Source: Cyanobacteria bacterium CG_2015-22_32_23 (GTDB taxonomy: Bacteria; Cyanobacteriota; Cyanobacteriia; Cyanobacteriales; Cyanobacteriaceae). From it: a DNA stretch of 64,000 bases. Shown here in pieces: positions 651 to 62,009 of this stretch; the stretch's first letter is position 1, and each line of letters opens with the position of its first letter. The notes beneath the pieces were generated by a model that made no database searches, had not been told where the DNA came from, and saw only the letters and a list, made by a program, of their open reading frames with translations. The translations under genes were made by a program, and so were the position numbers. The stretch is taken from positions 1 through 64,000 of the forward strand of contig JAACUG010000063.1 of the NCBI GenBank assembly GCA_009993045.1, written 5' to 3'.

Positions 651-3600
651 TTAATTAGATATTTTTTGACGACATTCTTCCGCCTGTGGAAGATATCCGC
701 CTTTTTCATAATATTTAACTGCCGTTTCAAAGTCATTCATTTTGATACATACTAAAGCGGCTTTTTCCCACTTTTCGAGATATTGCCAAAGTTGCGCCGC
801 TTCTTCCCATTTTTTTTGATATTCACAAATAGTAGCTAATTTTTCCCAATTGGCAGTTTTTCGCCAACATTCTTCTGCTTTCTCCCAATCTTGACATTTT
901 TCATAACAAATAGCGGCTTTGTCAATTTCATTATTTAATAACCATGCTTTACCAGCATCTTCCCATTTTTCTTGATATTCACAAACCATGGCTAATTTTT
1001 CCCATTTCCATAATTTTCGCCAACATTCCTCCGCATTACTCCATTTTTCTGCTTTTTCATAACAAATAGCAGCTTTTTCTGTTTGATTAACTCTTAAATA
1101 AGAAGATGCAGCTAACTCCCATGCTTGTAGTTGTTCACACACATGAGCAAATTTTTCCCAATTCTGGGATTTTTCCCAATATTTAGCAGCTTTCTCCCAA
1201 TCTTGACAGTTTTCATAACAAAGAGCTGCTTTTTCTAATTGATTTGCCTGTAACCAATCATAAGCTGCTTTTTGCCATGTTCCCTGTTGTTTACAAGCAT
1301 TCTCCACTTTTTCCCAGTTTTTTAACTTTTGCCAACAATCTTCAGCTAATCGCCAATGTTTTCCTTCTTCATAACATAAGGCTGCTTTCTCAATGTCACC
1401 GTAATTATGCCAACAATTACCAGCTTTTTCCCATAGTGTTAATTTTTCCCATATTTGGGCGGCTTCTTCCCATTTTTCTTGTTTTTCTAAGGTTTTAGCG
1501 AGAAAATCACTTTTTTGTAACTGACGCCAACATTTTTCAGCTAAATGCCAACATTCTCCTTCTTCATAACAAAAAGCGGCTTTTTCTGTTTCACCAATGT
1601 TTTCCCAAGCTAATCCAGCTTTATGCCATTCTCCTAAATTTTCCCAACTTTCAGCGGCTTCTTGCCATTTTCCTTGTTTTTCACAAGCTAAGATAATCCT
1701 AGCCCAATTTTTCGCTTCTAACCAACATTTTTCGGCTTTTTCCCACTCTTGACATTGTTCGTAACACAAGGCTTCTAATTCGTTAGGATTGGTTTTACTC
1801 CATGCGCAAGCAGCCGATTGCCATTTATTTTGTTGTTGTAATGAAATAGCGACAAAACCCCAATAACCCAACTCTAACCATAATTTTTCTGCTTGATGCC
1901 ATTGATTTGCTTTTTGATAACATAAAGCCGCTTTCTCAATTTCAGCCATTTTTAACCATGTTTGAGCCGCTAAATCCCAATTTTCCTCAGATTCATAAGA
2001 TAACGCCAATTCTTGCCAATTACCTAACTCTTCCCAGCATTTTTGTGCAGAAGCCCATTTTTGTGCTTTTTGCCAACACAAAGCCGCTTTTTCTACATCC
2101 CCTTGTTTTTGCCAACAATTACCAGCTTTTTCCCACTGTTGCGACTCTTCCCAAATTAAAGCCACTTTATCCCATTTTTCTAATTTTGTCCACATTTTAA
2201 TGGCGGCAGAAATTTGTTGATGTTGGCGATAATATTTATCTGCTAATTCATAATATTTATCTCTTTGTAAAACTAAGTTTTTTTCTCCACATTCATCTCC
2301 AGCTAACTCCCATTGATTATCTCTTTCTAAACATCTTAATTTACCTTCAAAATCTTTAGCTTTCTCATAACAAAATTTAGCTAATTTATAATCATTTTCC
2401 TTTTCAAAATAAAGTCCTTTTTTTTGCCATTCTTCAGAATCTATTACTGCCCATTTTGCTAACCAAAGTTTTTTATCTACTTCATTCCAACAATTAATTG
2501 CTTCATCAAAAATACCTAATTTATTCCAAATATCTCCTGCTTTACCCCAATTTCCTTGCTCTTCTTCTAATAAAGCCTCAACTTTTGCTGCACCAATTAT
2601 ATTATCATAACGATGATATATTTGACTAGCTATTTGATAAGATTTATCGCTACCTTTGTGAAGATAATTCTCCGTCATTAATGAGATTTCTGCTTCTAAA
2701 TATTTATTCTCAAATAATGATTCTAATTCCGTTTCATATCCCCACTCAATTAAATTACTTATATTAGGTAAACTCCAAATTTCATCAATATTTTGATCAT
2801 AAAAAAATAACTTTTTCTTCGCTAAATTAGTACAGGAATAAAGGTAATTATACTTTAGTTTATCATAAGATTCATGATCCAGTGAATTATGTTCTTTTAA
2901 CATAGCAATTTTTGTAAACATTTTCCAGATTAAAACTTCTTCAAATTCTAAATCATTAATATTATCAAAATGTAAAATTCTTTCGCTATCTTCAGGAAAC
3001 ATTGCTGTCAATTTATTTCTTTCTTCCTCGTCAAAAACTACTATGGCACTATTAATACTAATATTAGATTTTGATAGTAAAAAATTTGTGCTAATATCTG
3101 CAATAACTAAAATTTTATCCTGGGATTTTATCCAAGAATAATGATGAATATTTTCCCCTGACAAATTAGCAACAATAACGCCCAAATTAGTTATATTATC
3201 AGTATAATTAAAATTATAATTTAATTCTGTCTGTTCGATTAATTCTCTAATAATTCTCCATGCTGGTAATTTATGATAAGATTCTACTAAAATCTTTTTA
3301 ACTCTATTCCAAGTAATATTATTTTGATTAAAACTGATTTGATTATTTCCCACTAAAAATATTTGAGGAAGATAATTTTCTTCTTGATTAATTTTTAATA
3401 ATTTAAGAGAAAATTGTATTTGTAATTCTGTAAATTTATCAATTCCGTCAATATAAATAGACTCATATTCTCCTTGATAATTGTCAGGTAACTTATTTAA
3501 AAGATACCGAGTTAAATCTAAATCATCCCAGTAATTTTGTAATTTTAGCCATTCTTGATACTGAGTTGCTAAATTATAAATTGATTCAAAATCGGTATTT

Positions 3601-4577
3601 TTAGGTAATAAACTTTGATTTTTTATAGCTAAATATTCTGGTAAAGAGATTAATCCACTATTACTTTTAATTGCTTTTATTGAGCCTTTAATAATATATC
3701 TAATTTCTTGCCATAAATCTTCAGCTTTTAGAATAAATATTTTTTTAGTTTTGAAAAATTGCTCAGTAAATTTATGTAAAGTTATTTGTCTTTGTGCTAA
3801 AAATTTTTGCGTGAAGATAAGAGGATATTTTTCCATAATAGTTTGAATTAATAACAAATAGTGATAAAAATTAATATGATCATTTAAAGTTATACTATTA
3901 CTAATTTTTTTCGCATCTTTTGCTAAGAATTTATTTTCCCCAAGATAAAGTATTTTTTCTTGGCCATTTTTACTTAAGATATTACCTTTTTTTATAGCTG
4001 AATAAATAGCAGTTTTAGTTTTTCCCGTGCCATAGTTACCAATTATAAATTTTGGTAAAAGATTTTCATCATTAATTATTTTGTATTGTTGATTAGATAA
4101 TAATATAGAATTATTTAAAGAATCTTCTAAAGGAAAATAACACCAAAAATCATCATCATTTAAACTTAAATCTTGTGGTTTAAATAGATATTCATTACTA
4201 AATAAACTATTAATTTCTATTAGGTTAATTTCTTTAACAATATCTATATTTTCAAAAACAAATTTTTGATTATTCTCCATTTTTAAAGGATAATCTTTAA
4301 TATCTTTTGAATTAACTAAATCTATTATTTTGATAATTAATTCTTGTCTTTCTGATTTTAATAAAACTGTTAATATTTTTAAGTCTTCCCTATAGGTAAA
4401 ATTTATAATTATTACTGAATCATGTTTATATATCGTAGAAATTTTTTCCTGAGATTCTGAGGATAGAATTATTGAATAAAGATTATTAAGAAAATTATTT
4501 TGACATAAAGAAGATAAAGAATTTAATTTTACCCAAACACGGTTAGAAAAACTTATTATGGAATCTGTAGAGTTCAT
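651..4577 (-). CDS. Degenerate SF1 (UvrD-like) NTPase with W-rich helical repeats
   Basis: 1308 residues; no characterised homologue recognised. Residues about 160-190 hold a Q-motif-like SNQQYKII and a Walker A GNYGTGKT. A motif II counterpart lies near 376-384 (YIDGIDKFT, where active helicases have DEAQ), a motif III-like LVGNNQ near 408-413, a motif V-like DLEFEEVLIW near 542-551 and a motif VI-like YLYSCTNLAKK near 578-588 in place of YVALTRA. The order is that of UvrD-type SF1 helicases, but the Walker B glutamate and the motif VI arginine look lost. From about residue 650 to the end the protein is a helical repeat of about 13-residue units built on W-x-x-A and A-x-x-C/Y patterns, as in the helicase-plus-repeat layout of TRANK1-like proteins. 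No signal peptide or membrane segment. It may bind a nucleotide or act as a sensor or scaffold; that is inference. Monocistronic, next to an IS remnant. Confidence 0.7.
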   Translation of the reverse strand: MNSTDSIISFSNRVWVKLNSLSSLCQNNFLNNLYSIILSSESQEKISTIYKHDSVIIINFTYREDLKILTVLLKSERQELIIKIIDLVNSKDIKDYPLKMENNQKFVFENIDIVKEINLIEINSLFSNEYLFKPQDLSLNDDDFWCYFPLEDSLNNSILLSNQQYKIINDENLLPKFIIGNYGTGKTKTAIYSAIKKGNILSKNGQEKILYLGENKFLAKDAKKISNSITLNDHINFYHYLLLIQTIMEKYPLIFTQKFLAQRQITLHKFTEQFFKTKKIFILKAEDLWQEIRYIIKGSIKAIKSNSGLISLPEYLAIKNQSLLPKNTDFESIYNLATQYQEWLKLQNYWDDLDLTRYLLNKLPDNYQGEYESIYIDGIDKFTELQIQFSLKLLKINQEENYLPQIFLVGNNQISFNQNNITWNRVKKILVESYHKLPAWRIIRELIEQTELNYNFNYTDNITNLGVIVANLSGENIHHYSWIKSQDKILVIADISTNFLLSKSNISINSAIVVFDEEERNKLTAMFPEDSERILHFDNINDLEFEEVLIWKMFTKIAMLKEHNSLDHESYDKLKYNYLYSCTNLAKKKLFFYDQNIDEIWSLPNISNLIEWGYETELESLFENKYLEAEISLMTENYLHKGSDKSYQIASQIYHRYDNIIGAAKVEALLEEEQGNWGKAGDIWNKLGIFDEAINCWNEVDKKLWLAKWAVIDSEEWQKKGLYFEKENDYKLAKFCYEKAKDFEGKLRCLERDNQWELAGDECGEKNLVLQRDKYYELADKYYRQHQQISAAIKMWTKLEKWDKVALIWEESQQWEKAGNCWQKQGDVEKAALCWQKAQKWASAQKCWEELGNWQELALSYESEENWDLAAQTWLKMAEIEKAALCYQKANQWHQAEKLWLELGYWGFVAISLQQQNKWQSAACAWSKTNPNELEALCYEQCQEWEKAEKCWLEAKNWARIILACEKQGKWQEAAESWENLGEWHKAGLAWENIGETEKAAFCYEEGECWHLAEKCWRQLQKSDFLAKTLEKQEKWEEAAQIWEKLTLWEKAGNCWHNYGDIEKAALCYEEGKHWRLAEDCWQKLKNWEKVENACKQQGTWQKAAYDWLQANQLEKAALCYENCQDWEKAAKYWEKSQNWEKFAHVCEQLQAWELAASSYLRVNQTEKAAICYEKAEKWSNAEECWRKLWKWEKLAMVCEYQEKWEDAGKAWLLNNEIDKAAICYEKCQDWEKAEECWRKTANWEKLATICEYQKKWEEAAQLWQYLEKWEKAALVCIKMNDFETAVKYYEKGGYLPQAEECRQKISN
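660..2250 (-). repeat. 39-bp-phased coding repeat array
   Basis: The 3' half of the W-repeat gene is a DNA-level repeat. A recurring TCATAACA-like anchor lies at 901, 1057, 1213, 1369, 1564, 1759 and 1915. The gaps are 156, 156, 156, 195, 195 and 156 bp, all multiples of 39 bp (13 codons). The usual super-unit is therefore four 13-residue helices (52 residues), with five-helix units in the middle. Confidence 0.85.
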
Positions 4578-8694: not shown

Positions 8695-9252
8695 TTATTG
8701 AATTCCTAACAATTCCACGTCAAAAATTAAAGTAGCGTTAGGAGGAATTGCACCACCTGCACCCCTAGCACCATAACCTAAATCTGGTGGAATGATCAAA
8801 GTAGTTTTAGAACCGACGCTCATACTAGCTACTCCTTCATCCCATCCTTTTATAACTTGCCCTACACCAATAGTAAAGGTAAAAGGTTGATTGCGATCAA
8901 GTGAACTATCAAATTTTTTGCCTCTTTTAAAGCCTTCTTCTGCTAAGTAACCTGTGTAATTTACTGTTACTTTTTGTCCTCTTTGGGGGTTAACTCCATC
9001 TCCTGCTACAGTTTCAATAGACTTTAAGCCTGTAGAAGAAGTTTGTGCGGTTGATAAATCTATATCCATTTTTCCTTTCGGTTTAAGTTGACTAGCGTCT
9101 GCGATTAAAGACACATTTTGAGTTAGTGTAACATTGTTTGTACCTATTTCTTCCGCTATGGCTTCTGGTTTATTGTTATTAAAAATAAGGGAAATTATTA
9201 AAAATACTCCACAAACCAGAACAATTCCCATGCTAAATATAATCGGTTTCAT
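8695..9252 (-). CDS. FKBP-type peptidyl-prolyl isomerase
   Basis: 185 residues. A short N-terminal hydrophobic anchor (IIFSMGIVLVCGVFLIISLIF) is followed by a linker and a complete FKBP domain over about the last 110 residues: GQKVTVNYTGYL, KFDSSLDRNQPFTFTIG, VIKGWDEGV, IPPDLGYGARGAG and IPPNATLIFDVELLGI. It should speed prolyl folding outside the cytoplasm (thylakoid lumen or periplasm), membrane-tethered or secreted. The ATG at 9252 is used. The frame stays open upstream only because it runs through a purine-rich tandem repeat, which translates to improbable P/S/F/L-rich sequence. Confidence 0.9.
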   Translation of the reverse strand: MKPIIFSMGIVLVCGVFLIISLIFNNNKPEAIAEEIGTNNVTLTQNVSLIADASQLKPKGKMDIDLSTAQTSSTGLKSIETVAGDGVNPQRGQKVTVNYTGYLAEEGFKRGKKFDSSLDRNQPFTFTIGVGQVIKGWDEGVASMSVGSKTTLIIPPDLGYGARGAGGAIPPNATLIFDVELLGIQ

Positions 9253-9346
9253 GTTCAATTTATTATGAGGGTCAATTATTAATTGTCTATCACAACTTCT
9301 CCTTTGTCTATTACAAACCTGAATTAGACACAAAATTTTCAATAAC

Positions 9347-9449
9347 GATAGGAGATAGGAGTTAGGAAGGAAATGGGGAGATAGGAAGGAAATAGGAAGA
9401 TGGGAAGGAAATGGGGAGATGGGAAGAAAATGGGGAGATAGGGGGATGG
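9347..9449. repeat. Purine-rich heptad tandem array
   Basis: Imperfect repeats of units such as GGAAGGA, AATGGGG and AGATAGG (about 21 bp per full cycle), lying 95-200 bp upstream of the FKBP start. STRR-like, with strong purine/pyrimidine strand asymmetry. Confidence 0.8.
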
Positions 9450-9489
9450 TAAAAATAATTGATTTAAACCTTATCAATCAAGAAATTTT

Positions 9490-14473: not shown

Positions 14474-16495
14474 CTATTCAACTATCCCCATAACAGGGGA
14501 ACTTGCACAAGCATATTGTTTTACAGGAATACGCCCTGCTTGATAAGCTAGTCTTCCTGCCACGGCGGCGAGTCTCATTCCTTGTGCCATTTTAACTGGA
14601 TTTTTAGCCTGTGCGATCGCACTATTAATTAATAAAGCATCTGCACCTAATTCCATTCCCAAAGCAGCTTCGCTAGGTGTACCAATTCCAGCGTCAATTA
14701 CTACGGGTATTTTGGCTTGTTCGATGATAATTTTTATGTTAGCTAAATTCTGAATACCTTGTCCTGAACCGATAGGAGAACCTAAAGGCATAACTGTCGC
14801 ACAACCAACCTCTTCTAATCTTTTACAAAGAAGGGGATCTGCATTAACATAAGGTAACACAGCAAAACCCTCTTTTACTAACTGCTCTGCTGCTTGTAGT
14901 GTTCCGATAGGATCAGGTAATAAATATTTAGAATCAGGAATAACCTCTAATTTGATGAAGTTATTGTCTTCCTGCCCTAGCAATTTAGCCATTTCTCTAC
15001 CTAAACGAGCAACTCTGATAGCTTCTTCAGCATTAGTACAACCTGCGGTATTAGGTAACATCCAGATTTTACTCCAATCAAGAGCTTCTGCTAATCCTTC
15101 GTGGCCAGGGGCATTAGTTTGCACTCTACGCACAGCAACGGTGACGATTTCGCAACCACTAGCCATAACGCTTTGTTGCATAGATTCCATAGTCGGATAT
15201 TTACCTGTACCTGTCATCAACCGAGACTTGAATTTTTTTCCTGCAATAATTAAACTATCGTCTTCATCAGAATTATTGGGGAAAATTTCTTTAGCATTTG
15301 AAGGGCTTAAATAACCTAAATTTTCAGTTTTAGGAGAAAAATGACCTCCATTTCCGTTTGTTGAGGTTATATCACTTCCATTCGAGCTTATATTACTATT
15401 TTGAGGACTGCTAGGGGTAGGATAACTCATAATTTTGCTTTGAGATTGATTAAATCGTTGGTAAGTAAAATGTTTTAATAAAGGATCAACATATTGATGG
15501 GTGATAAGATTACTGATTAATTGAGCGGTTATGGGTGCTAATAGAATACCATTGCGGTGATGTCCTGTAGCGAAGATTAAGTTATCACTATCGCCATAGC
15601 CTAAAATAGGCATTTCATCTACCGTAGCGGGGCGAAAACCAGACCAAATTTCTTCTAATTGCCAACAAGCAAGGGGAGGATATAAACCAATGGCACGATT
15701 TAACAAAGTATTAATACCTTCGGCTGTAGTGCCTTGTTGCCAACCAATATCTTCAGAAGTTGCACCCACAATTAAACGCCCGTCTTTTTTAGGCACTAAG
15801 TAGGTATTTTCGCCAAAAATTACTCTTTCTAAGGGATTATCCGAGGCTATTCTTAAACTTAACATTTGCCCTTTTAATGGACGCAGTGGAAGAGGAAATA
15901 GTTTACTTGACCATGCACCACTAGCGACAATATAAGTATCAGCAGAAAAAATGCCAGATTTGGTGAGGATATTTTTGATTTTACCATGATCACGAGTGAA
16001 GGCGATGGCTTCAACACCTTCTTTAATTTCAATGCCAATGGATTGAGCTATATTTAACAGTACTTTACCCACACGACGAGGATCAACTTGCCCCTCTTCA
16101 GGATACCAATAACCCCCCATAACGGCTTTTCCTAACTGGGGTTGATATAGTTGAATGGTATCTTTATCTAACCAATGATCATTAATGGTAGAAGGTTGCT
16201 CATAAACTGGGGCGATGATACCACAAGGATTGTAGTCTATATCTTCACCACTTAATTGTTCTAATTTCTGTGCCCATTCTGGATATAAAGCAAGAGATTG
16301 TAAAGCTAAATCTAAGATAACACCATCTAACTGTTCTGCCCTAGGTGCTAACATTCCAGCGGCGGCGTTGGTGGCGGCTTCGGTATAATTTTTACTTAAG
16401 ACTGTTACCCCTAATCCTTTTAATTTTAATTCAAGGGCGATGGATAGTCCGATAATTCCACCACCAATGATTATAATTTCGTTGCTAGTTTTCAT
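14474..16495 (-). CDS. thiOG: Bifunctional glycine oxidase / thiazole synthase ThiO-ThiG
   Basis: 673 residues. The N-terminal half (about 1-345) is Thi[18 protein letters not shown] for FAD, and an [10 protein letters not shown] segment and a [11 protein letters not shown] end typical of glycine oxidase. A linker rich in Ser/Asn (about 350-400) leads to ThiG (about 410-665), with [25 protein letters not shown] (Schiff-base lysine region) and [13 protein letters not shown]. ThiO makes dehydroglycine and ThiG builds the thiazole of thiamine. The fusion is known in cyanobacteria and channels a labile intermediate. Other thi genes are not nearby. Confidence 0.95.
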
Positions 16496-16606: not shown

Positions 16607-18385
16607 TTACTTTCCTAATAGCCACATAATATTAAAACCAACACTGACGTTATCTTGAGATTGAGTAACAACACTACCAATATTACCTGTACCTGCGGCA
16701 TTAGTGCCATAAACACCAACTCCGACATTAGTTTGAGGAGGCATATAACGAGCTCCCGCCGCCCAAGTTGTGGCATCGTTACTTAACATAGGGGTTACTT
16801 CTCCCATTAACTGTAATCCTGAAATAGGCTGAAAATTGATCCCAAAACCAGCACCTAAGATGCGATTTGAACCAAATACCCCTAATTTAGGATTAAACAT
16901 AAAGGCAATTTTGTCATTTGCTTCATAAATAAAAGATGCTTCTCCTGAAAAAGCTCCCACTCCATCATCTTTAGTTGTAGCTTCTTCAAAAGCTCCTTTA
17001 ATACCAAAGGAAAAAGGATCACCTTGGGCTTGGTTAAGAAACCTGAGTTTGGTAGCCGCCCCCAGTTTCAATGAATTACCAATAGGTTTATCACTGTCTC
17101 CTAATTGTTGTCCGATAAATTCTAATTGTGCGTCATTGCTCATACCATAGCCGATTTGAAAATTAGCACTAGGGCCGATGCCACCATTAACAGAAAATGT
17201 CCCTTGTCTGATGGTGTTAGGAGAACTCAGGGTGATACCATCAAAAAGTAATTGTTTATCTCTGTCAGAAAGGGGTTGAAAAGGACGAGTATCGAAACTA
17301 GATTGATAATTATGACCAATATCAGGAGTATATCTGACATTTAAACCCACCCCGACTTGATTACCATCAGGAAGAAAGGTTAATAATTTAGTAGCTGGGG
17401 TATCCCCTAATCTATTGCTAATGGATAAATCAACACCAACAGTAGGGCTATGAAGGTAGTTTAACCCAGTACTCCATACAAGACTTTTACCCACTTTACC
17501 ATTAGTTCCCACACTATTGCCACCAGGACCTAAAGGGACATTTATATCAGCGAAAAAGCCAAATCGTTCGTTAAACTTAAAACTAAGTCCAGTACCAATA
17601 TTAAAAAATGTACCGTAAAAATCTCCACCATCATTAACGGTATCAGGAAAAAAACTTAAACCGCCGACAATATGCCATTGATAATTTTTGGCAACATTAT
17701 AGGTAAAAGGTACTTGAATTGTACCAGCAAAAGTATTATCAGTTTGAAAATTATTTTTTGAGGTAAATAAACCATTTTCTGAAGAGATTTTTAACCATTC
17801 TAAAGATCCAACTATGGCTAAACTATAGTTATCTTTTTTCATTAACTGATATTTGACATTAGGCGCTAAGGAAAAATAACCTAAGTCTGTAGGTTTACCA
17901 TTAAATTTACTACCTAAAAGATCATCAAAGAAAGATAAGGTTACCCCTACTTGTAATTTATCAGTTACACCGCCATTAATAGTTAAAGTATATACCTGTA
18001 ACCCTGTACCTTTACCTTGTGAACCTTTAGGAAAAACAAGAGTACCATAATTGGTATAAATTGCACCTACAGGTAAAATATTTGCCGTTTCTACCGTCAT
18101 CGGCTCAAAAGGAAATAGTTGTAAAGGTGTTAGAGTATATTCTACAGGTTTTATTTCTTCTAAAGGAGGGATAACATTTTCTGTATTGTTTTGAGTCTCA
18201 GGGGATAAGTTTTCTTGAGACATGAGTAATTGAGAACTATTACTTGGTACAAGAGTATCTACTGTGGTGGGATTTTTCTGAGTATTGGAGTCTGTTATTT
18301 CATCCCCATAAATAGGAATATTGGCATCTACACAAAAAATAGAAGCAAAAGTGAGATTAAGGAAAATTAAGGTTTTAAATTTCAT
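16607..18385 (-). CDS. Putative outer-membrane beta-barrel protein
   Basis: 592 residues. An N-terminal signal peptide (about 1-22) is followed by a Thr/Asn-rich spacer to about residue 85. The remainder is alternating Gly/aromatic amphipathic strands (for example LQVGVTLSFFDD, FGFFADINVPLG, VGVGLNVRYTPD) and ends with VGFNIMWLLGK, a terminal strand compatible with BAM insertion. There may be two barrel-like halves split near residue 375. No family recognised; a transporter-like barrel is the best guess. Single gene. Confidence 0.6.
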   Translation of the reverse strand: MKFKTLIFLNLTFASIFCVDANIPIYGDEITDSNTQKNPTTVDTLVPSNSSQLLMSQENLSPETQNNTENVIPPLEEIKPVEYTLTPLQLFPFEPMTVETANILPVGAIYTNYGTLVFPKGSQGKGTGLQVYTLTINGGVTDKLQVGVTLSFFDDLLGSKFNGKPTDLGYFSLAPNVKYQLMKKDNYSLAIVGSLEWLKISSENGLFTSKNNFQTDNTFAGTIQVPFTYNVAKNYQWHIVGGLSFFPDTVNDGGDFYGTFFNIGTGLSFKFNERFGFFADINVPLGPGGNSVGTNGKVGKSLVWSTGLNYLHSPTVGVDLSISNRLGDTPATKLLTFLPDGNQVGVGLNVRYTPDIGHNYQSSFDTRPFQPLSDRDKQLLFDGITLSSPNTIRQGTFSVNGGIGPSANFQIGYGMSNDAQLEFIGQQLGDSDKPIGNSLKLGAATKLRFLNQAQGDPFSFGIKGAFEEATTKDDGVGAFSGEASFIYEANDKIAFMFNPKLGVFGSNRILGAGFGINFQPISGLQLMGEVTPMLSNDATTWAAGARYMPPQTNVGVGVYGTNAAGTGNIGSVVTQSQDNVSVGFNIMWLLGK

Positions 18386-21885: not shown

Positions 21886-23751
21886 ATGAAGATTATTTTA
21901 GTAGAAGATGATGAAAGGTTAGGAAAATTAATCAAAGAATATTTAATTCATGAATCAGAAGTATTTGATATAGTAAAAACTGGAGTTAATATTGCACAAC
22001 AATTAGAAGAAAAAAAATATGATATTCTTATATTAGATGTGATGTTACCTGATAGAAATGGTATCGATATTTGTCGGGAATTACGGAAAAATAATGTTAA
22101 TATCAGTATTCTATTTATCACTGCTTTAAACAATCAAATAGATAAAATAAAAGCCTTTGAATCTGGCGCTGACGATTATTTAACAAAACCCTTTGATTTT
22201 CAAGAATTGTTAGTAAGAATAAAAGCATTAGTTAGAAGAGAAAATAATATTGAATCTCCTAAATTAATTTGGCAAAACCTCATCATGATGCCAGAAGAAA
22301 AAAAGGTAGTTTATGAGAATAAATATTTACATTTAACTCCTACAGAATTTAAGATTTTACAGATTTTTTTAGAAACCCCTAACAAAGTATTCAATACTGA
22401 AAATATTATCGATAAACTTTGGGATATAGATACTATTCCTACTAATAATACTTTAAGATCTCATATTAAATCATTACGGAAAAAATTAGAACAAGTTGGC
22501 TTAGATAAAGAATTTATTGAAACAGTTTATGGTATGGGTTATCGGTTAAAAACTCCATCTATTACTAATCAACCAACATTAGAAAATAATAGTCAAACAG
22601 AAAATAAAATAATTAGTCATAAAGAAGAAAAGTTAACACTATTCATGGAAGAAATATGGTTAGATAATCAAGAAAGTGTTAGTAATGATTGTCAAACTTT
22701 ATTAGATTATATTCAAGGAAAAAAAGATGATATTTCTATTGATGATATAATTCGTATTCCTCATAATTTTGTCGGCTTTTTAGGGAGTATTGGTTTTAGT
22801 TATGCTGGAGAAATAGCTAGAAATATTGAAGCCTTTTTAAAAGAGAATAAAAATAATTTAAAAGAGGAAAAAGTACAATTAAAAATAACTAATCTAATTT
22901 ATGATTTACAAAAAAGTTTATTCCCTGAAGCAAAATTAATTTTTAAGAAAAATAATCAGTTAATGGGTATAAACTATAAAGTCAATATACTTGTCATTGA
23001 TGAAGATCAAAAATTAGCAGATGAATTAATATTTTTTATAGAAAATCCTAACATTGATCTTAATTTTGCCTATACTATTAATACTGCGATTAAATATATA
23101 AATGACTATGAATATGATTTAGTTATTTTAGAAACTCAGTGGAAAAATAAGGGGGATAGACAAAATTTAATTTTAGATTTATTAAGTCAAAAACAAGATA
23201 AAACTAAAATAATAATCTATAGTAAAAATGATGATTTAGAAAATAGATTATATTGTTCAAAATATCCTATTAATGCTTTTTTAAGTAAAAATAATTCTTT
23301 AGAAATTCTTTGGCAAAATATAGAAAATATCTTAGGGGAAAATAATGATAATTCTCAGATAAAATCTCTCTATGACATTCTAATAATTGATGATGATATA
23401 AGGTTTACTGAAGTTTTAAAACAAAAATTAATTCTTAACCAATTACCCGTTAATATTAATATTATTTCTGATAGTGAAACTTTTTTAGATGAGATAAAAA
23501 AAATTAAGCCTCATTTAATTATTTTAGATTTAGAAATGCCAAAACTTAATGGTTTAGATATATGTAAAATTATCAAAAAAGATCCTTTTTTACAATCCAT
23601 TCCAGTTTTATTTCTTACGGGAAATTTAGCGGAAGATGTTATTACTAAGTTTATCGAAGCTGGTGCGGATGATTTTATCAGTAAATCAAAAATTGATGTA
23701 GAATTATATCCTAGAATTATCACTCATTTGAATAGATATAAAAAATCATAA
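21886..23751 (+). CDS. OmpR-type response regulator with HPt, pseudo-receiver and second receiver
   Basis: 621 residues. REC1 (1-118) is complete: acidic pair at 8-9, phospho-Asp 51 in LILDVMLPDRNG, Lys 101 in LTKPFDF. A winged-helix DNA-binding domain follows (about 125-222, ending GMGYRLK). Residues about 250-350 form an HPt-like domain with His 293 in IPHNFVGFLGSIGF. A receiver-like domain (about 365-485) has Glu 416 where the phospho-Asp should be. A final receiver (about 495-621) has D502-D504, phospho-Asp 548 and an ADDFISKSK end. The layout suggests an internal phosphorelay on a transcription factor. No partner kinase is adjacent. Confidence 0.9.
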   Translation: MKIILVEDDERLGKLIKEYLIHESEVFDIVKTGVNIAQQLEEKKYDILILDVMLPDRNGIDICRELRKNNVNISILFITALNNQIDKIKAFESGADDYLTKPFDFQELLVRIKALVRRENNIESPKLIWQNLIMMPEEKKVVYENKYLHLTPTEFKILQIFLETPNKVFNTENIIDKLWDIDTIPTNNTLRSHIKSLRKKLEQVGLDKEFIETVYGMGYRLKTPSITNQPTLENNSQTENKIISHKEEKLTLFMEEIWLDNQESVSNDCQTLLDYIQGKKDDISIDDIIRIPHNFVGFLGSIGFSYAGEIARNIEAFLKENKNNLKEEKVQLKITNLIYDLQKSLFPEAKLIFKKNNQLMGINYKVNILVIDEDQKLADELIFFIENPNIDLNFAYTINTAIKYINDYEYDLVILETQWKNKGDRQNLILDLLSQKQDKTKIIIYSKNDDLENRLYCSKYPINAFLSKNNSLEILWQNIENILGENNDNSQIKSLYDILIIDDDIRFTEVLKQKLILNQLPVNINIISDSETFLDEIKKIKPHLIILDLEMPKLNGLDICKIIKKDPFLQSIPVLFLTGNLAEDVITKFIEAGADDFISKSKIDVELYPRIITHLNRYKKS

Positions 23752-61042: not shown

Positions 61043-61098
61043 AAATCACAAAAAAAAGAATAGATAGCTAACAGAATATGCTATAGTTATAACTTCAA

Positions 61099-61218
61099 TA
61101 TCGGTTCTTGCGATAAATAGTCGTGAGAGGAAACAGGGAAAGAGTAGTTAAAATCTACCACTGTCCCGCAACTGTGATTAAGAAAAATACTCTTATAAGT
61201 CAGAACACCTGCCGAGAT
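61099..61218 (+). promoter_or_regulatory. Cobalamin riboswitch
   Basis: The core is recognisable in order: a 5' part with GGTTCTTGCGA, then GAAACAGGGAA, the B12-box-like CACTGTCCCGCAACTGTGA and a 3' TCAGAACACCTGCCGA. It lies 33 bp before cbiM. The GAGGT ribosome binding site (61241-61245) can pair with ACCT in the riboswitch 3' end, which would fit translational shut-off when cobalamin is high; the pairing is inference. Confidence 0.92.
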
Positions 61219-61250
61219 GAATTAATAAGTGTTAATCTGCGAGGTACAGA

Positions 61251-62009
61251 ATGAATACACGTCTCAAGAATCGAATCTGCTTAGGTTTAATGGCAGGTTT
61301 GAGCTGTTTTATGATCATTTTTTCTCCCACTCCAGCCTATGCTATGCACATCGCTGAGGGTTTTTTACCTGTGACATGGGCGATTTTTTGGTGGGTTGTA
61401 ACGATACCCTTTTTGATATTTGGGTTTAAATCTCTTTCTCGTATTACAAAAGACAATCCAGAATTAAAGTTACTTTTAGCTTTATCAGGGGCATTTGGCT
61501 TTGTGTTGTCAGCCTTGAAAATCCCTTCAGTGACGGGTAGTTGTTCTCATCCCACAGGCATGGGATTAGGGGCAATTTTATTCGGGCCTTCCGTTATGGC
61601 AGTTTTAGGTAGTTTAGTATTACTATTTCAATCGGTATTATTAGCTCATGGTGGTTTAACAACTTTAGGGGCAAATGCTTTCTCTATGGCTATTGTCGGC
61701 CCTTGGGTTGCCTTTGTTGTTTATCGTCTTATAATCCTTAGCGGTAAGGAAAAATTAGCTATTTTCTGCGGTGCAAGTTTAGGAAATTTAGCGACTTATG
61801 TGGTTACTTCCATGCAATTAGCCATAGTTTTTCCTGCGGTGGAAGGCGGTGTTATGGCTTCATTTATTAAATTTGCAAGTATTTTTGCTATCACTCAAAT
61901 TCCTTTAGCCATCAGTGAAGGTTTTTTGACGGTGTTGGTGTGGAATTGGCTACAGTCTTACGCCATTAACGAATTACAAACCTTAAAACTATTAAAAAAT
62001 CAACCATAA
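61251..62009 (+). CDS. cbiM: Cobalt ECF transporter S-component CbiM
   Basis: 252 residues. Signal peptide 1-31, after which the mature start MHIAEGFLP gives the N-terminal Met-His that binds Co(II) in this family. About seven membrane segments follow, with [17 protein letters not shown] and [15 protein letters not shown] motifs. Brings cobalt into the cell for B12. Start preceded by GAGG; regulated by the riboswitch upstream. Confidence 0.95.

Follow-up and report, generated by a model that had tools for sequence, protein, structure and literature searches.

A helicase descendant with a retained P-loop, lost motor residues and a long alpha solenoid in a cyanobacterial family: a probable pseudohelicase scaffold

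Described pseudohelicases are few. PriA belongs to superfamily 2 (SF2). The PriA of Deinococcus radiodurans is a pseudohelicase with a demonstrated partner (DnaB) and demonstrated DNA binding (PMC4504706), and Utp25 is a helicase descendant that lacks a motor and has kept a binding role (PMC9539457). Here we describe a gene related to superfamily 1A (SF1A, UvrD/PcrA-like) helicases in a 64,000-nucleotide stretch of DNA (the window), which comprises positions 1-64000 of one contig in the genome of Cyanobacteria bacterium CG_2015-22_32_23 (3.27 Mb, 142 contigs). Its product has three parts: an N-terminal domain (residues 1-135), an SF1 helicase-like core (155-610) and an alpha solenoid (640-1308). 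We propose, with a probability of about 0.62, that this protein is a domesticated pseudohelicase scaffold that binds nucleoside triphosphate (NTP) and does not hydrolyze it. Like D. radiodurans PriA and Utp25, it would be a helicase descendant that lost the motor and retained a binding role, but any partner of it is putative, whereas that of PriA is demonstrated. The two also differ in what was lost: Walker A Lys became Arg in the PriA of Deinococcus-Thermus (PMC4504706), while in the window protein Walker A is perfect and the remaining motifs are lost. Literature searches on TRANK1 and UvrD, on RelE and UvrD fusions and on Geminocystis helicases returned no description of the window protein, and no paper in the collection searched named both TRANK1 and UvrD.

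Two sets of intact helicases served as the closest comparisons. The window protein shares with UvrD, PcrA and FBH1 the motif order, the P-loop, a block before motif II and profile matches in the PDB. Unlike them it lacks the catalytic Glu/Gln, both Arg positions and the Lys-Gly of motif V, and it adds the long solenoid and a probable RelE-like N-terminal domain. Cyanobacterial proteins annotated as ‘UvrD-helicase domain-containing protein’ with a repeat tail (groups I1-I3, which include a Euhalothece plasmid copy) have the same domain order and are homologous over the full helicase part; in contrast to the window protein they have all helicase motifs intact, are patchily distributed, and in some cases carry ordinary 34-residue tetratricopeptide repeats (TPRs). 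The gene and its parts, with the basis for each call, are as follows (type A is the first of two kinds of dead homologue described below).

651..4577, minus strand: type A pseudohelicase gene with C-terminal solenoid; ATG start, 1308 residues (open reading frame call and homologues)
4173..4577, minus strand: N-terminal domain, residues 1-135, probably decayed RelE/YoeB-like (hhalign to close intact homologues; YoeB matches of distant homologues)
4017..4040, minus strand: Walker A (motif I), GNYGTGKT, residues 180-187, intact (G180, G185 and K186 invariant in 44/44 homologues)
3516..3728, minus strand: conserved inter-motif block, residues 284-354 (LWQEIRYIIKGS ... YQEWL..YWDDLDL), including the motif before motif II (holds or adjoins most core residues invariant in 21 dead copies)
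3435..3449, minus strand: motif II (Walker B), DGIDK, with DGID at residues 377-380; Asp retained, Glu/Gln/Asp gone (alignment and motif table)
3204..3215, minus strand: motif IV, NFNY (NFRS when intact), Arg gone (alignment and motif table)
2943..2957, minus strand: motif V, NDLEF (KGLEF when intact), Lys-Gly gone (alignment and motif table)
2814..2840, minus strand: motif VI, YSCTNLAKK (YVxxTRARx when intact), Arg gone (alignment and motif table)
654..2660, minus strand: alpha solenoid, residues 640-1308, about 51 units of 13 residues with one 10-residue helix each (Trp periodicity, AlphaFold2, Foldseek/VIA, Pfam TPR_2 and Clathrin)

Motif positions were set by alignment to homologues with intact motifs, and not by eye alone. 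Motifs I to VI lay in the SF1A order both in this alignment and in a PDB profile search with the helicase part, which matched UvrD1 (E = 3e-7), FBH1, UvrD, PcrA and AddA with the motif regions correctly ordered. Where the intact homologues read GSAGSGKT, CDEVQD, GDxxQ, NFRS, KGLEF and TRAR, the window protein reads GNYGTGKT, IDGIDK, GNNQI, NFNY, NDLEF and TNLAK. The catalytic residues typical of SF1A (motif II DExQ, motif IV Arg, motif VI Arg) are thus replaced by DGID, NFNY and TNLAK; motif VI in full is CTNLAKKK against CxTRAR, and the Gln of motif III is also absent. A first-pass annotation of the DNA had read the SF1 motifs in order, with a perfect Walker A, DGID as Walker B and a motif VI without its Arg, and the alignment confirmed each of these points. 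Pfam found no UvrD domain in the window protein, and its one match to the helicase part was ADDB_N at E = 0.009, below the cut-off; the UvrD domain was detected in 12 of 24 homologues.

We tabulated the motifs of 44 homologues: 23 intact, 12 of type A and nine of a second dead kind, type B. All 23 intact homologues retain the Glu, Gln and second Asp of motif II, the Arg of motif IV, the Lys, Gly and Glu of motif V and the Arg of motif VI, and eight further complete homologues from a sample of the order were all intact as well, for a total of 31. Among the 21 dead copies, the motif II Glu survives in one and the Arg of motif IV or motif VI in none; the motif V positions and the motif II Gln are retained in a minority of type A and type B sequences. 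In contrast to these losses, the P-loop retains its two Gly and its Lys in 44/44, as motif II does its Asp (D377). The earlier suggestion that the protein is not a motor is well supported, since across the family the loss of the motif II Glu and of the motif IV and VI Arg is fixed.

A working but diverged SF1 helicase or translocase, in which replacement residues stand in for the lost Glu and Arg fingers, was weighed against this pattern. It would account for the P-loop Lys and Mg-binding Asp in every copy, for the LEF of motif V in the window protein, and for purifying selection on the core as a whole. But the catalytic and coupling positions of five motifs are gone together in both paralogues, and the substitutes are many (G, D or N at the motif II Glu; L, S, C, N, I, Q, T or V at the motif IV Arg), which looks like relaxed constraint and not re-invention. 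Moreover, all intact relatives keep the motifs, including the close paralogues of the same family (L037-L039). We consider a diverged motor quite unlikely.

The type A gene was found in 15 of 15 sampled species of the window’s cyanobacterial family (Geminocystis relatives); the closest named relative found was a Geminocystis metagenome-assembled genome (79% over residues 572-1308). Twelve of the copies are complete in length; that of G014 is truncated by the end of its contig, that of G003 is split over contigs (L081 and L082), and the G005 copy is discussed below. The incomplete copies have degenerate motifs as well, wherever these can be read. Type B, a second dead paralogue of up to about 2170 residues (L040-L047, L065, L066), is present whole or as remnants in about 10 genomes of the family. 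No type B was found in the window genome, which has type A alone, and this ruled out a dependence of type A on type B or on an intact paralogue.

A tree built without the columns of motifs II, III, IV and VI placed A and B in one clade (98/96) nested among intact homologues. The sister of this clade is the intact paralogue group L037-L039 of the same family, and all other intact groups fall outside. With all motif columns except those of motif I removed, the A+B clade was recovered at 89/94, and type A alone at 100/100 when B was omitted. Because A and B form one clade with an intact sister, a single loss of the motor that preceded the duplication into A and B is probable, and independent losses are less so. 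The genera within type A are each monophyletic, which fits vertical inheritance. The first-pass annotation had allowed that homologues with intact motifs could make this an ordinary helicase with local sequence drift. Intact homologues do exist, but the dead state marks an old clade under purifying selection. The name ‘UvrD-helicase’ would accordingly be misleading for the A+B clade.

Selection was assessed by pairwise ratios of nonsynonymous to synonymous substitution (dN/dS), which were 0.08-0.30 for the helicase core, 0.05-0.17 for the solenoid and 0.1-0.8 for the weakly constrained N-terminal domain. The core is thus under purifying selection, and the protein combines descent from intact helicases with catalytic loss under selection, as expected of a pseudohelicase. 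These values also bear on the idea of a decaying pseudogene or selfish relic adjoining an insertion sequence (IS). That idea could draw on the ISKra4 fragment beside the gene, on the fast-evolving N-terminal domain and on one copy with two TGA codons. It is contradicted by 12 full-length frames across genera, by presence in 15/15 species and by dN/dS far under 1 in core and solenoid; the IS sits where the contig ends, and the orthologues have no recurrent IS gene next to them. The pseudogene reading is refuted for the A clade as a whole, and we regard it as scarcely credible for the window copy.

Across the 21 dead copies just 26 of the 456 core positions never vary; among them are the three P-loop residues, D377 and a block at residues 270-354. 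That the invariant residues fall here suggests that this block, together with the solenoid, provides the working surfaces. A scaffold in which the P-loop is a structural relic, so that function resides in the solenoid and the protein binds no nucleotide, would be consistent with the solenoid as the most constrained part and with the near-complete loss of catalytic residues. It sits poorly with the fixation of G180, G185, K186 and D377 in all dead copies when so little else in the core is fixed, since a merely structural Lys should drift. We judge this alternative rather unlikely.

The history that we propose for the NTP-binding scaffold begins with an SF1A (UvrD/PcrA-like) helicase that had an alpha solenoid at its C-terminus and, probably, a RelE-like domain at its N-terminus. 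Its catalytic residues would have been lost, probably in a single event, no later than the ancestor of the window’s cyanobacterial family, after which duplication of the dead helicase would have given types A and B, and vertical inheritance would have maintained the gene. The RecA1 lobe would still bind Mg-NTP through the kept P-loop and Asp. Lacking the catalytic Glu and both Arg positions, the protein would hydrolyze NTP very slowly or not at all and would not translocate. The conformation of the core would instead depend on the bound nucleotide, while one or more protein partners would dock on the solenoid of about 670 residues, so that the whole would act as an NTP-dependent scaffold or sensor. 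If so, the family is a natural test case for the use of a helicase core as a nucleotide-gated scaffold, and its history can be followed: there are intact relatives, the loss has its place on a tree, both dead paralogues survive, and the P-loop outlasted the motor.

Several points weigh against this proposal. It rests on sequence, some helicase-fold ATPases may hydrolyze slowly with shifted residues, and the P-loop could have been kept for structure instead of NTP binding. In one dead copy (L028) motif II still has DE. In genome G005, which is 67% complete, the reading frame of the type A copy (L007/L031) is conserved except for two in-frame TGA codons, which reflect either a pseudogene or an assembly error. 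Synonymous divergence was 0.7-1.2 in several pairs, so the dN/dS values are approximate. Lastly, structure prediction, which the first-pass annotation had put forward as a check, returned a helical solenoid, but for residues 1-660 the single-sequence AlphaFold2 model had a confidence (predicted local distance difference test, pLDDT) of 33 and was unusable; the RecA fold rests on homology.

The solenoid was defined by its Trp spacing. It contains 57 Trp in 669 residues, and Trp-Trp pairs at a lag of 13 residues numbered 25, against 4.7 ± 2.0 in shuffled sequences (0 of 2000 shuffles reached 25). Lags of 26, 39, 52 and 65 were also high, whereas lags of 17 and 34 gave no pairs. DNA repeats are spaced at multiples of 39 nt, and AlphaFold2 run from two sequences predicted one 10-residue helix per 13 residues (pLDDT mostly 75-90 over residues 800-1308). 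The 13-residue period of the Trp-rich tail had been noticed in the first-pass annotation, which put the length at 600 residues; the period stands and the length is about 670. We conclude that the C-terminus is an alpha solenoid with 13 residues per helix. A canonical TPR array, with its 34-residue two-helix repeat, was rejected on the empty lag of 34 and on the modelled spacing of a helix every 13 residues, although TPR_2 still matches the helices. The Pfam matches here were TPR_2 and Clathrin; ankyrin repeats, a feature of TRANK1, had no match in the Pfam scan of the window protein. At first pass the layout of the protein, with repeats joined to a helicase-like module, had been likened to that of TRANK1 (TPR and ankyrin repeat containing 1), a kinship that is hypothetical. 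Structural matches (Foldseek/VIA) identified the general TPR-like class only, and Z under about 13 is not specific for repeats. Subunits of intraflagellar transport complex A (WDR19/IFT144) and TPR superhelices are likewise alpha solenoids of short helices, with a sequence match to IFT144 at E = 1e-4 and a Foldseek match at E = 5e-10, but the repeat type is all they have in common with the window protein, as global superposition was poor (TM-score about 0.2).

The N-terminal domain, probably RelE-like, is a separate domain that the first-pass annotation missed. In a single hhalign comparison, the type A domain matched that of the close intact paralogues at E = 3e-13. The close and distant intact domains are linked weakly (E = 0.019), and the distant ones (L048-L050) matched YoeB_toxin (E = 0.0005-0.005) and HigB-like models, over a joint range of E = 0.0005-0.05 and all below the cut-off. 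In the PDB the five best matches to a profile of the domain family were YoeB/RelE chains, all weak (E = 0.2-0.6). RelE-like ancestry is likely from these comparisons, but unproven. In the intact set R57, R63 and H85 are invariant, and we take them to correspond to the catalytic Arg and His residues of YoeB. None is present in the window protein, and any ribonuclease activity of its N-terminal domain was probably lost with them.

A conflict-system setting had been suggested at first for the gene. In its fullest form, a RelE-like domain and helicase would act against phages or plasmids as a defense or toxin gene, with the window copy as decoy or regulator. Intact relatives are indeed patchy (83 of 196 genomes of the order have any homologue), a Euhalothece plasmid (NZ_CP042327.1) carries an intact UvrD/solenoid homologue whose N-terminal domain is probably RelE-like, and the N-terminal domain of the window protein is itself probably RelE-like. 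The type A gene, by contrast, is universal in the family and apparently vertical, and its RelE-like domain has lost the invariant Arg, Arg and His. A neighborhood survey of the type A orthologues, also proposed at first pass, found no neighbor conserved across genera and none that was defense-like, and no IS gene recurred among them. PADLOC models had no match in the window at E up to 1. The suggestion is not supported by these results, and we consider a conflict role very unlikely. The protein had no match in an NCBIfam scan, and no homologue was found in a search of viral contigs. The patchiness of the intact relatives, at least one of them plasmid-borne, makes it plausible that the gene was domesticated from a mobile ancestor. 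As a separate observation, distant UvrD-type matches (about 21% identity) occur on Shigella and Escherichia plasmids.

Loss of dnaA has been published for Cyanobacterium and Geminocystis (PMC7198777). In agreement with this loss, none of the 15 family species (G000-G014) had a match to the DnaA C-terminal domain, which was matched in 10 of 14 control genomes. The sample of 196 genomes of the order contained 39 without a DnaA match, 12 in the family and 27 of 184 outside it. For this cyanobacterial family, whose replication is unusual, type A is a core-factor candidate. The link to DnaA is a weak lead because the coincidence concerns one clade, DnaA also goes unmatched in those 27 outside genomes, and, beyond the family, all inspected close homologues were intact. 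The same two observations from outside the family ruled out a strict replacement of DnaA. A highly improbable extension of the scaffold proposal would make the protein an NTP-state hub that arose by domestication of a mobile RelE-helicase and has a core role, perhaps in DnaA-independent chromosome replication.

The gene sits at the start of its contig, adjoining a multi-copy ISKra4 fragment at the contig end. The position beside an IS remnant, as first described, is therefore correct as to the fragment but reflects an assembly break on the left-hand side, and the flanking genes are ordinary. To the right lie a glycosyltransferase (Pfam) and then an MscS-type channel, with open reading frames between them that, judging by their sequence, would encode NAD kinase and an FKBP-type isomerase. 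The FKBP-like frame (8695-9477) has a TTG-started N-terminal extension that contains a 19-bp tandem repeat of 4.5 copies (9358-9442); translation probably starts farther downstream, which would leave the repeat outside the coding sequence. Elsewhere in the window, a single 673-residue frame (14474-16495) fuses a flavin adenine dinucleotide (FAD)-dependent oxidoreductase (ThiO-like) to ThiG, and a 592-residue frame at 16607-18385 had no Pfam match at 1e-5. A cobalamin riboswitch (Rfam, 61085-61230) lies just upstream of a CbiM cobalt-transport gene (61251-62009), and a response regulator at 21886-23751 has three receiver domains and one DNA-binding Trans_reg_C domain.

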